The notes below the pieces were generated by a model. That model did no database searches. It was not told where the DNA came from and saw nothing but the letters and a program-made list of their open reading frames with translations. From Sorex araneus (lineage: Eukaryota > Chordata > Mammalia > Eulipotyphla > Soricidae), in the NCBI RefSeq assembly GCF_027595985.1, contig NC_073302.1, positions 406,760,503 through 406,824,502 on the forward strand: a stretch of 64,000 nucleotides of DNA, read 5' to 3'. Of the stretch, positions 4,965 to 63,577 are shown piece by piece (positions within the stretch are counted from its first letter, which is position 1; each line of letters starts with the position of its first letter). The position numbers were made by a program, and so were the translations under genes.

Positions 4965-5224
4965 TATGCCTCTTAGAAAACCCGGAAAGCTACCGAGAGT
5001 ATTCTGCCCGCACAGCAGACCCTGGCAAGCTTCCCATCGAGTATTAGATATGCCAAAACCAGTAACAATAACAGCTCTCATTCCCCTGACTTTGAAAGAA
5101 GCCTCCAATCTTGGGAAAGACGAGTAAGGAGAGGCTGCTAAAATCTCAGGGCTGAGATGAATGGAGACATTTCTGGCGCCTGCTTGAGTAAATCGATGAA
5201 CAACGGGATAACAGTGATACAGCA
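4965..5224 (+). repeat. RTE-tailed SINE, long form, 5' truncated
   Basis: It contains the body (AAGCTACCGAGAGTATTCTG), the long-form insert (CAATCTTGGGAAAGACGAGT) and the RTE-derived tail (GAGTAAATCGATGAACAACG, then GATAACAGTGATACAG). It lies directly after the L1 tail. Confidence 0.88.
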
Positions 5225-5517: not shown

Positions 5518-5773
5518 ACTGTATCACTGTCATCCTGTTGTTCATCGATTTACTTGAGCAGGCGCCAGTAACGTCTCAATTCATCCCAGCCCTGAGATTT
5601 TTAGCAGCCTCTCCTTACTTCTCTTTCCCAACAGTTAGAGGCTCTTTTCAGGGTCAGGGGAATAAGACTGTTATTGTTACTGTATTTGGCATATCGAATA
5701 CACCACAGGGAGCTTGCCAGGCTCTTCCATGCAGGTGGGATACTCTCGGTAGCTTGCCGGTCTCTCCGAGAGT

Positions 5774-5828: not shown

Positions 5829-6418
5829 CCCTTTCTTTTTTTTCTGTTAGGATTAATCAACAACTTTATTAAAGTAATAACTATAAAATCAAAATATAGA
5901 AATTTGGTTGCGTTTTTATAAATTAACAGTGAACTACATGAACTACATGAAAAATCTTTTTCAAACTAGCATCAAAGAATTATTTCTAGCACAAAAAATG
6001 TCAGAATAAACTTCAAGGTGAAAGATGTCTGCATTAAGAAATGAAAGACATTAATCAAAGAATTTTAAGACATATATAAGTAGAAAGACATATCTAATTA
6101 CAATTCTCATAATTTTTTGAAAAAGAAGACGTAGAAATGGCCAATAGATGCATTACTAGGTTTTTAGCCCATTAATCAACACAGAATGCAATATATTTCC
6201 CTTTCTGATGATGTCTCAGTACAGGAATACATTCACTCATGCGTGAGACTTGGCCCGAGCATGTGGACAGCGGCTTAGACCTGTGTAACTAAGTCCCCAA
6301 ATTAAGTGCCCTCATTAATGTATGCACCTGAACATTATACAATACATGGTATTTTAATAAAAATTTGTGATTTTAACTCATTTTTCTCGAATTTGGTACA
6401 ACAAAAATCTTGAAGTAG

Positions 6419-6598
6419 GGGCCGGAGCGATAGCACAGCGGGTAGGGCGTTTGCCTTGCACGCGGCCGACATGGGTTCGATCCCCGGCATCCCATATGGT
6501 CCCCCAAGCACCGCCAGGAGTAGTTCCTGAGTGCAAAGCCAGGAGTAACCCCTGAGCATCGCTGGGTGTGACCCAAAAAGCAAAAAAAAAAAAAAAAA
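6419..6598 (+). repeat. SOR-type SINE, full length, young
   Basis: It is close to the family consensus, with a 20-base A tail. Perfect 16-base TSDs (AAAAATCTTGAAGTAG) lie at 6403-6418 and 6599-6614. Confidence 0.97.
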
Positions 6599-6760: not shown

Positions 6761-6941
6761 TTTTTTTTTTTTTTTTTTGCCTTTTGGGTCACACCCGGCG
6801 ATGCACAGGGTTACTCCTGGCTCTGCACTCAGGAATTACTCCTGGCTGTGCTCAGGGGACCATATGGGATGCTGGGAATCGAACCCGGGTCGACCGCGTG
6901 CAAGGTAAACGCCCTACCCGCTATGCTATTGCTCCAGCCCC
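6761..6941 (-). repeat. SOR-type SINE, full length, young
   Basis: Close to consensus with an 18-base T tract. Perfect TSDs (TCTAAAAGTTCT) lie at 6749-6760 and 6942-6953. Confidence 0.97.
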
Positions 6942-7105: not shown

Positions 7106-7243
7106 AGGAGTTGTCTTTAAAAACTGATATCAAATTTTAGGTAGTAAAGATAGATATTAGTACTCAGATGTTTTGTCTTCACAACATTCCTGTCGCATTT
7201 ATTTTTATTCAGGTTTATAATATTCATATTCTAGTGTATAACC

Positions 7244-7496
7244 GGACTGGAGCGATAGCACAGTGGGTAGGGTGTTTGCCTTGCATGTGGCCGACCCGGG
7301 TTCGATTTCTCCGTCCCTCCCGGAGAGCCTGGCAAGCTACTGAGAGTATCCTGCCCACACGGCAGAGCCTGGCAAGCTACCTGTGCCATATTCGATATGC
7401 CAAAAACAGTAACAAGAAGTCTCACAATGGAGACAGTACGGGTATGTGCTTGAGCAAATCAATAAACAATGGGACAACAGTGCTACAGTGCTATAG
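7244..7496 (+). repeat. RTE-tailed SINE with SOR-like tRNA head, complete short form
   Basis: The head is GGACTGGAGCGATAGCACAG up to the B box GGGTTCGATTTC. The body has a 16-base direct repeat (GAGCCTGGCAAGCTAC at 7325 and 7365). The tail (TGAGCAAATCAATAAACAAT, then GTGCTACAGTGCTATAG) matches the 3' end of the RTE LINE. It shows that one element carries all three parts. Confidence 0.9.
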
Positions 7497-8889
7497 TCTA
7501 TAATCACAATTTTCATAGCTGCTTAGAACCAGTAAAATTACATATTAAGGGCACAACTCTGTGGCACTAGAATATAAATTTCATACAGGTCAGGTGGGTT
7601 ACTTGTTTTGTTCACTGATGCATACAAAGTAACTAGAAGAGTGGAATGTATATAGATAGTAACAAATACATGTTACATTATTTTACCACGGTTATGCACT
7701 TTCTTAGTTTAAAATATTCTCTCTGAGGCTTGTTTTTGGGTCACATTCAGTGTGCTTAGGGCACAGGAGCTGCCCCATGCTTCCTGTATTGGAGGTTGCC
7801 TTTTAAAAATATAACAAAAAACATATTGTTCTTGATGGTTGGGTTTAAATTTTGTATATACGTGTAAACATGTAGTTTTTTCGTCAATGAAGAAGCCCTT
7901 CTGGAAGACTTATTCTTCCCCTTAAACATTTCTACAGTAGTTTGCGCTGTTCAAAATGCCATAAGCAATACCAAGGAATACTGGGCTATGTACTGGTCTT
8001 CGATGTAAATATACTTTTGAACAGTATAACTGGGCATATATATTTTTAATTTTTATTTAATCATTGCGAGATTAACCCTTACAATGCTGCTCATGATTAG
8101 GTTTCAGTCATCTAGTGTTCCAACACTTATAACTGCGTATGCTTAAAGGAAATATGTCAGGGAAGCCCGCAGACCTCATCCTACTGGCAAGGAGAGGCAG
8201 TGTGGTGAGGGGCAGTGTTAAGAAGGATTTCATTCAGTGCACTTTGAATTATTATTTTTTTTCAAGTTTCATCGTTATCAGTTAAGCTTCAGATTGGTAC
8301 AAGTCCAGACTCAGAAGTGTCTGCAGATTTTAAAGATCAGCATGGTACTTAGAGGAGTAGGTGGGTATGAAAGAAAGATGAAGCCTCCCCACTTCCCCAC
8401 CCCAAACAAAAACAATCCCGGGTAATGGAAAACATCTTGCAAAATACAGAGTAACACTTTCCACCTTCCGTTTCTGCAAAAGCAAGGCTCACTTTTGATT
8501 CATAAAGGTCCTTTGCTGCGACTGTAACTAAAAGTTGTACACAAAAGCTGCAGGCGAAAAGGAGTCTTTTGAAACAGAGGCTCCCAGTGAAATAGGACTC
8601 AAACAACAAAGAGCCCCTCACTACTGATCACCACCCTTGTCTTCCATGAGGGCAGGCACGCGGCTGCAGAGAGACCACCTTCCCTCCCACACTTGGCCTA
8701 GCAACCCCGCCCGGTGCAAACATTTTCCTATCAGGTCCCCATAACCCTCTCTTAGGGATCTAGAAGGCCGGGCACGGGAAGCGTGAATAACCCCAGGTAA
8801 GGATGTCGTCACCGAGGGATGACGAGAATAGAACCCAAATCCCTTGACTCCGAGCTTGTGTTTTCCACTAATTGTGCTCCCTTTCCACG
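7497..8889. other. Upstream flank of the CpG island, no gene or SINE seen
   Basis: About 1.4 kb is free of recognisable SINEs. GC content rises after 8620. It may include distal promoter sequence. Confidence 0.4.
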
Positions 8890-34917: not shown

Positions 34918-62320
<27,403 letters not shown>

Positions 62321-62564
62321 CTGTAATAATAAAAACAAATCTCACCCACATTCTCTGTTAATGTATGATCTGGATACAAAGCAATTATTTCCAAATAATT
62401 ATTACAACAAAAAGATTGACAGTAATTCCCAATTCTGCACATGTCAATTGGGAAAGTGTAATTATAGAGATAAGCATGGAGAGGAGAGAAGGGCAGGCTG
62501 GTACAGCACAGGCACCATGCTGGTTTAGGGAGGCTTTGGGGATTTTTCTGTGCATCTTATTAAG

Positions 62565-63345
62565 TATCACTTGTATCACTTGTCATCCTATTGATCCTCA
62601 ATTTTCTCGAGTGGGCACCAGTAACGTCTCCATTTGTCCCGGTTGCGTGTTAGTGTAGCCCAATGATATCTGCTCGCCCCAGGAACAGGAAGAGCCTCAA
62701 ACCGTTCACTCACAGTTTTGACAAAGAAGTCTGACAATCTCGTTGGTGGGTGGCCACGTGGTCTTTTGACGTCCCATGCAATCCAGTTGGTAACAGCTCT
62801 AGTTCAGCGGTCGTCTCTGAATCGCATTACATGTCGGGCACATCTGATTTTTGATGTCTTGACAAACGAGACAGTGTCCCTGATTCTTGATCGTCGACGG
62901 ACGTCGGAACTCCAGATCCCTTCTCTCACTTGAGTAAGACATGATACTCCAGGCATAGCTCTTTCCATTCCTCTTTGGGATACCCGAATAGTGTTCTCAT
63001 CCTGTTTGCTTAGGGCCCAGGTCTCTGAGGCGTATGTTAGTGCAGGAAGACCGGTGGAGTCGAAAAGATGTGCCCGGAGCCAAAGGTTCTTCGTCCTCTT
63101 AACCACTTCTTCGATGCTCTTGAAGGCATTCCACACTGCTCTCTTCCTCCTGTACAGTTCTGGTGCCAAGTCATTCCTCATGTTGAGTTCTCGACCCAGG
63201 TACACATAGCTGCTGCATTCGGAGATGTTTGTTCCATTGAGAGCAAATGGAAGGTCAGGGACTAGTTCATTTTTCATGAACATTGTCTTAGTGAGATTCA
63301 GCTGTAATCCGACCTTTCTACACTCTCAGCCAAAGTTGACCCAAC
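62565..63345 (-). repeat. RTE-clade LINE, 3' end with reverse-transcriptase C-terminal coding
   Basis: On the minus strand, 62807-63283 is open and encodes the typical RTE region after the RT core: YLGRELNMRNDLAPELYRRK, AFKSIEEVVKRTKNLWLRAH, LFDSTGLPALTYASETWALS. One in-frame TGA (62804-62806), where RTE proteins usually have Trp, interrupts it. Coding text then continues in the same frame (HPPTRLSDFF, WRRYWCP) to a stop at 62588-62590. The 3' UTR is very short and ends in GTGATACAA-type repeats. The 5' end is truncated near 63345. Confidence 0.9.
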
Positions 63346-63577
63346 AACAGTAACATCAATGGACCTCATCTTATTAAAATAGTAGTGTTAAATTTTCTTT
63401 GGATACTTTTCATGTAGTCTCCTTAGCTCTTAACTTTCTTTCAGCCATCTTTTAAATGTTCACCATCATTACTATTCTGTCCAGGGAATAACCTTGGATC
63501 CCTGATAATTTTTTAAGCAATTTTTTTATAAGTATATGCTCCAGTCCTTTATTTCTTTTTGGGTTTTTTTTGTGTTG

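Follow-up and report, generated by a model that had tools for sequence, protein, structure and literature searches.

The window, a 64,000-nucleotide stretch of Sorex araneus DNA, contains a SINE built from three pieces: the tRNA-derived head of the shrew SINE SOR, a fragment of the 5'UTR of an RTE LINE, and an RTE 3' end. The reading favored here, with a probability of roughly 0.87, is that this three-piece SINE is mobilised by RTE; its most likely origin is by way of RTE internal-deletion derivatives.

Architecture of the chimeric SINE

The element proper occupies positions 7244-7493 of the forward strand and comprises a SOR-type head, a body unlike that of SOR, and an RTE-type tail (Table 1). 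Its 12-nt target-site duplication was left unscored by the automatic search, which tolerates one mismatch. The earlier note had listed five other copies of the SINE in the window; the one at 55313 (minus strand) is indeed a truncated chimeric SINE, while those at 4970, 5772 (minus strand), 38002 (minus strand) and 49229 lack a tRNA head and belong to a separate family. Since four of the five are headless and the fifth consists of tail only, just one complete chimeric element lies in the window.

Table 1. Features of the window discussed in the text, in order of position.
Feature	Positions	Strand	Remarks
Headless RTE derivative	4970..5221	+	RTE 5' piece + RTE 3' end
Headless RTE derivative	5520..5772	-	
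Near SOR copy (sister SINE)	6418..6580	+	A-tail, 16-nt target duplication
Near SOR copy (sister SINE)	6782..6941	-	A-tail, 16-nt target duplication
5' target-site duplication TAGTGTATAACC of chimeric SINE	7232..7243	+	10/12 vs 7494-7505, spotted by eye, letters checked
SOR-type tRNA-derived head	7244..7308	+	Intact A box, 7256-7266; one mismatch in the B box, 7299-7309
RTE 5'UTR fragment (body)	7309..7418	+	88% to L044 5' region, contiguous there with RTE reading frame
RTE 3' end (tail)	7425..7493	+	Two terminal ACAGTGCT repeats at 7477-7492
3' target-site duplication TAGTCTATAATC of chimeric SINE	7494..7505	+	Eroded 12-nt pair with 7232-7243
Headless RTE derivative	37760..38002	-	5' end eroded
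Headless RTE derivative	49229..49447	+	Internal deletion
Chimeric SINE copy, 5'-truncated	55239..55313	-	Tail only; identified by ACAGTGCT repeats
Target-site duplication, 3' end of RTE copy	62553..62563	-	Exact, 11/11
RTE LINE copy, 3' part	62564..63366	-	After short inverted RTE 5'UTR piece (63341-63369)
Target-site duplication, 5' end of RTE copy	63367..63377	-	Exact, 11/11

The SOR-like tRNA head proposed for the window element was borne out at the level of consensus sequences. Between the head consensuses of the SINE (55 copies) and of young SOR (47 copies) there were two substitutions, and the first base was missing from one of them; the SINE head was nearer to the young SOR set than to the old one. 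Both pol III promoter boxes are present in the SINE consensus, the A box at position 13 and the B box at 56, and four of the six tRNA-like SOR heads in the window were called tRNA-Ala by ARAGORN. The SOR consensus, built from 60 of the 65 head-bearing copies without RTE parts, holds both shrew SINE primer sites published in PMC8608897, as compared by eye. The chimeric SINE carries the SOR head; the SOR body and A-tail that membership of SOR entails are absent from it.

The body had been described as different, which holds with respect to the SOR body, but its origin had been missed. It aligned to the RTE 5'UTR with 97 of 110 positions identical, and none of 2000 shuffles scored as well. When the body was compared with the 5' region of the long RTE copies L044, L045 and L046, identities of 88%, 83% and 76% were obtained, and in these copies the stretch continues unbroken into the RTE reading frame. 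Folding of the body gave a z-score of -1.07 against shuffles. The junctions were then expressed in RTE 5' coordinates for 61 head-to-tail SINE copies, 60 of which gave a hit: the RTE 5' piece started at 52 or 53 in 54/60 and ended at 157-161 in 59/60. The B box forms the end of the head, and the junction reads GATTCCCAGC in SOR, AAAGCCTCCGTCCC in RTE copy L044 and GATTCCTCCGTCCC in the SINE. As judged from these alignments, the head/RTE junction is a fusion within a CC common to SOR and RTE.

The tail of the window SINE was identical to the window RTE at 43 of 63 positions, an agreement reached by none of 2000 shuffles, although as a single pair in blastn the two did not reach E<=1e-3 because both tail and RTE copies are eroded. 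Consensuses of the SINE and RTE 3' ends agreed in 62 of 67 columns, the base in a small number of CpG columns having been chosen by eye. The claimed relationship of the tail to the RTE 3' end therefore stands, while the identity to the RTE 3' consensus named as support in the earlier note does not, and the terminal repeats differ in length as well. SINE repeat units were the 8-nt ACAGTGCT in 64/73 cases and headless units were ACAGTGAT in 15/15, whereas 20 further RTE 3' ends, from copies that best match the window RTE, included 19 with at least one 9-nt ACAAGTGAT and none with the 8-nt unit. Furthermore, GATGAACAA is common to the SINE and the headless family, and RTE has GAAGATCAA in its place. 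In all, the SINE tail differs from the RTE 3' ends seen by two substitutions and by the 8-nt rather than 9-nt repeat; the headless copies share the SINE state, and the SINE tail is closer to the headless family than to the RTE 3' end. The exact donor is thus not among the LINE copies seen; the tail came either from a headless derivative or from some RTE subfamily beyond the copies examined. In RNA folding, the three shared 3' ends showed stabilities no better than shuffles (z 0.74, 0.20 and -0.80), and no recognition hairpin is claimed on these scores. With a body of about 110 nt from the RTE 5'UTR and a tail of about 68 nt from the RTE 3' end, nearly all of the sequence after the head is RTE, forming a bipartite tail.

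The RTE LINE and its headless derivatives

The edges of the RTE copy in the window were set by its flanking target duplications. Two queries led to long RTE copies: the window RTE, which gave 13,023 first-look candidates, and a piece upstream of it, which gave 8167. Among four RTE pieces compared with Pfam, one gave a reverse transcriptase match above the cut-off (PF00078, E 2e-12), another an endonuclease match below it (PF14529, E 7.6e-5, 23 vs 27.4 bits), and two gave no match. Exact duplications of 11-13 nt flanked 4 of 10 RTE LINE copies, while 3 of 90 mismatched pairs had a match of at least 11. Comparison of three long RTE 5' ends with Rfam produced two weak matches far below the cut-offs, and the window produced none, so that these comparisons revealed no known ribozyme or RNA family. 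Viral contigs scanned for the RTE reverse transcriptase yielded no relative. Five of ten RTE LINE copies (the window copy, L021 5579-6813, L034, L035 and L036) begin with an inverted RTE segment in a twin-priming-like arrangement. The inverted piece is RTE 5'UTR in the window, L021 and L036, and it overlaps the part retained by the SINE.

An abundant RTE of Sorex araneus, RTE1_Sar, has been reported as horizontally acquired from nematodes (PMC6542046). The helper RTE is probably RTE1_Sar, as suggested by the host, the abundance and the reverse transcriptase match. In the main text of that 2019 study, in which the LINE was counted, a word search gave no occurrence of 'SINE'.

In the headless family an RTE 5' piece and an RTE 3' end are linked without a tRNA head, and in the random sample described below (L009-L028) this family was roughly as common as the SINE (11 vs 14-19 matches). 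In RTE 5' coordinates, the 5' piece of headless copies started at 58-61 in 9/12 and ended at 246-248 in 11/12, with a longer 5' part in L011 and L043. Two headless copies, one in L023 and one at 49150-49230 of the window, resemble partial dimers.

An origin in which a full-length RTE subfamily carrying 8-nt repeats supplied the SINE tail directly, in place of a headless internal-deletion derivative, is a sizeable possibility that falls somewhat short of probable. It would account for the start of the 5'UTR piece at 52/53 in the SINE as opposed to mostly 58-61 in headless copies, a difference which indicates that the SINE is no simple derivative of the common headless form, and for the motif CTACCC, common to the SINE and RTE where headless copies have CTCCCC. 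Against it, the 8-nt repeat frame and GATGAACAA unite the SINE with the headless family and were lacking in the RTE copies seen, and some of the headless copies (L011 and L043) do have a longer 5' part.

Abundance, age and insertion signatures

A genome search with the window copy gave 3907 first-look candidates, of which 40 places were scored; all were near full-length matches, and the 39 places other than the window copy showed 87-89% identity. With the SINE consensus as the query in place of a natural copy, the genome search yielded no match, probably through the skipping of very frequent words. In a random sample of twenty 10-kb stretches (200 kb), drawn from 10 contigs within the ranges known for them, of which 8 were hit, the SINE model matched at 19 places, with 14 of these matches running head to tail. 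Genome-wide this extrapolates to about 168,000 head-to-tail copies (95% Poisson 92,000-283,000), if so small a sample is typical. The same 200 kb contained 11 headless matches, 38 SOR matches at 80% identity or above, and 56 older SOR-like matches. At L037 1925-2424, two chimeric SINE copies that are 81% alike adjoin in the same orientation.

Divergence was calculated at non-CpG positions against the family consensus for copies of the random sample and the window. The median was 9.2% for 15 SINE copies (minimum 2.9%) and 10.8% for 11 headless copies, while 109 SOR copies, with a minimum of 0.7%, fell into two waves, one of 46 copies diverged by less than 12% and one of 58 diverged by at least 18%. 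The ages of the SINE and the headless family overlap, and far younger copies are found in SOR. Five RTE fragments, three of them chosen by similarity and one being the window query, were 3.5-9.1% from a rough piece consensus. The best other copy was 98% identical for SOR vs 89% for the RTE-tailed element, with queries unequally eroded (96 vs 89% to consensus). Within the window and L009-L028, the two SOR age waves differ in head consensus, and the older may constitute a SINE family of its own.

Target duplications were scored by one rule in all classes with mismatched flanks as the control, and young SOR was defined as copies at 85% or more, 45 of which were scored, one of 46 being without a flank. 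Duplications were scored for 23/53 SINE copies (control 3/265) and 30/45 young SOR copies (control 3/225); the headless figure of 2/9 against a control of 3/45 is uninformative. Median duplication length was 13 nt in the SINE vs 15 nt in SOR (p 4e-6), and three or more A among the first four duplication bases occurred in 0/23 SINE vs 22/30 SOR duplications, figures in which a bias remains on the SOR side, where the A-tail can extend matches leftward into A-starting flanks. Upstream, T occupied 40/69 positions from -11 to -9 in the SINE vs 25/90 in SOR (p 1.7e-4), and TT lay within -12 to -8 at 18/23 SINE sites vs 9/30 SOR sites. The first bases of the SINE duplications were mixed (T 11, A 7, G 3, C 2; n=23), a pattern weaker than the published Tn-TA. 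The SINE copies came largely from loci chosen for likeness to the window copy (40/53, and 17/23 of those with duplications), and the SOR copies mostly from the random sample or the window. The five of 23 SINE duplications that came from the random sample had lengths of 9-15 and three or more A in the first four bases in 0/5. The 3' ends differed as well: 57 of 59 SINE ends were CAGTG-type repeats, two were neither and none A8, whereas 34 of 49 young SOR ends were A8, 15 neither and none an RTE repeat.

Insertions of the RTE clade are described as having a T-run about 10 nt upstream, and those of L1 as occurring at TT/AAAA (PMC13295347). The SOR signature fits L1, and that of the SINE fits RTE in the T-run, with a mixed first base; RTE-clade machinery for the SINE and L1-type machinery for SOR is the best reading of these data. 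The duplication types of the two SINEs thus differ, as the earlier note had anticipated, and end types together with duplication types support its proposal of RTE as the probable mobiliser of the one and L1 of the other.

Movement of the SINE by L1 in the manner of SOR, with the RTE part as a passenger, appears very improbable: the head is held in common with SOR, which is abundant here with an L1-type signature, but A8 ends were found in 0/59 SINE copies, the duplications are shorter and do not start in A-runs, and L1 mobilisation was rejected on the lack of A-tails. The remaining explanation, that the chimera reflects repeated independent SOR insertions beside RTE fragments instead of one family, has a negligible probability, since despite the great abundance of both SOR and RTE in the genome the same fragment ends recur (54/60 starts, 59/60 ends), duplications lie outside the whole unit in 23/53 copies, and the uniform junctions led to the rejection of chance adjacency.

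Proposed mechanism and known counterparts

Under the favored reading of an RTE-mobilised SINE, the element would be transcribed by pol III from the SOR head, and its RNA would be taken by the RTE protein via the RTE-derived tail. The protein would nick DNA and reverse-transcribe the SINE RNA at that place (target-primed reverse transcription), leaving duplications of 9-18 nt at T-rich sites, while SOR, with its own body and A-tail, would insert with an L1-type signature. As for the order of events, reconstructed from sequence comparison, the most likely origin is that RTE would first have yielded short internal-deletion derivatives, with a 5' piece joined to the 3' end, and that the RNA or a copy of such a derivative would then have been fused to a SOR head at the common CC.

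Ped-2 and Bov-tA are known as SINEs partnered by Bov-B, for which Gogolevsky 2008 is reportedly the work cited. For springhare Ped-2 a table in PMC3747384 gives a head from the ID SINE and BovB as the partner, so that one head served by two machineries is not unprecedented. As tabulated there, Ped-2 and ruminant Bov-tA resemble the shrew SINE in having a tRNA or tRNA-SINE head and an RTE-clade tail, and the Ped-2 head stems from the ID SINE where that of the shrew SINE stems from SOR. Their helper is Bov-B, with (CTGAA)n repeats in the cattle Bov-B of PMC13295347, unlike the ACAAGTGAT of the shrew RTE. The parallel drawn by the earlier note with the Bov-B/Bov-tA pair therefore holds as a way of working; in sequence only the 3' repeat was compared with published Bov-B, and it differs.

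Close in design, too, are bird SINEs mobilised by AviRTE (ManaSINE1, GymnSINE and others), described in PMC4844689 as having a promoter head and a tail from the RTE 5'UTR and 3'UTR, as in the shrew. According to the same source AviRTE also occurs in parasitic nematodes as a result of horizontal transfer; its SINEs differ from that of the shrew in their bird hosts, in their tRNA-Glu, 5S or other heads, and in depending on another RTE. Bov-A2, RTESINE1, MAR4 and RTE1-N1_LA, each with a head from the 5' end of RTE (or BovB) and an RTE-clade partner, can be likened to the headless family by their description in the table of PMC3747384, although their hosts and RTEs are others. For the hagfish SINEs SINE1-1_EBu and SINE2-9/10_EBu the same origin model, an internal-deletion RTE derivative joined to a SINE head, is given in PMC7245038, with 7SL or other heads and RTE-2/RTE-4 in place of the shrew components. 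SOR (Sor) itself, as it appears in PMC11240701, PMC8466645 and PMC8608897, is the shrew SINE that has the same head as the chimera and its own body and A-tail.

A search of one open-access library found no description of the shrew chimeric SINE; Repbase and Dfam may contain a consensus. Among the mammal rows consulted in the 2013 table of SINE/LINE pairs in PMC3747384 there is no shrew entry. The bipartite RTE tail is thus a design already known from Bov-B and AviRTE SINEs, of which the shrew member is apparently undescribed.

Interest attaches to the head that the two SINEs have in common and to the helper's probable descent from a parasite. Chances appear about even that a nematode-derived RTE tail was captured by a tRNA-SINE and that the RTE copied this SINE to the order of 100,000, while the sister with the same head kept to L1. 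Shrews now fall under the rule that RTE-dependent SINEs carry pieces from both LINE ends. Furthermore, the two shrew SINEs form a clean natural pair, with one promoter head, two tails and two insertion signatures in one genome, and these natural swaps make it directly testable whether the RTE protein reads the 5' piece, the 3' piece, or both. If the helper is RTE1_Sar, the SINE would also indicate the extent to which a parasite-derived retrotransposon amplified host sequence after its transfer.
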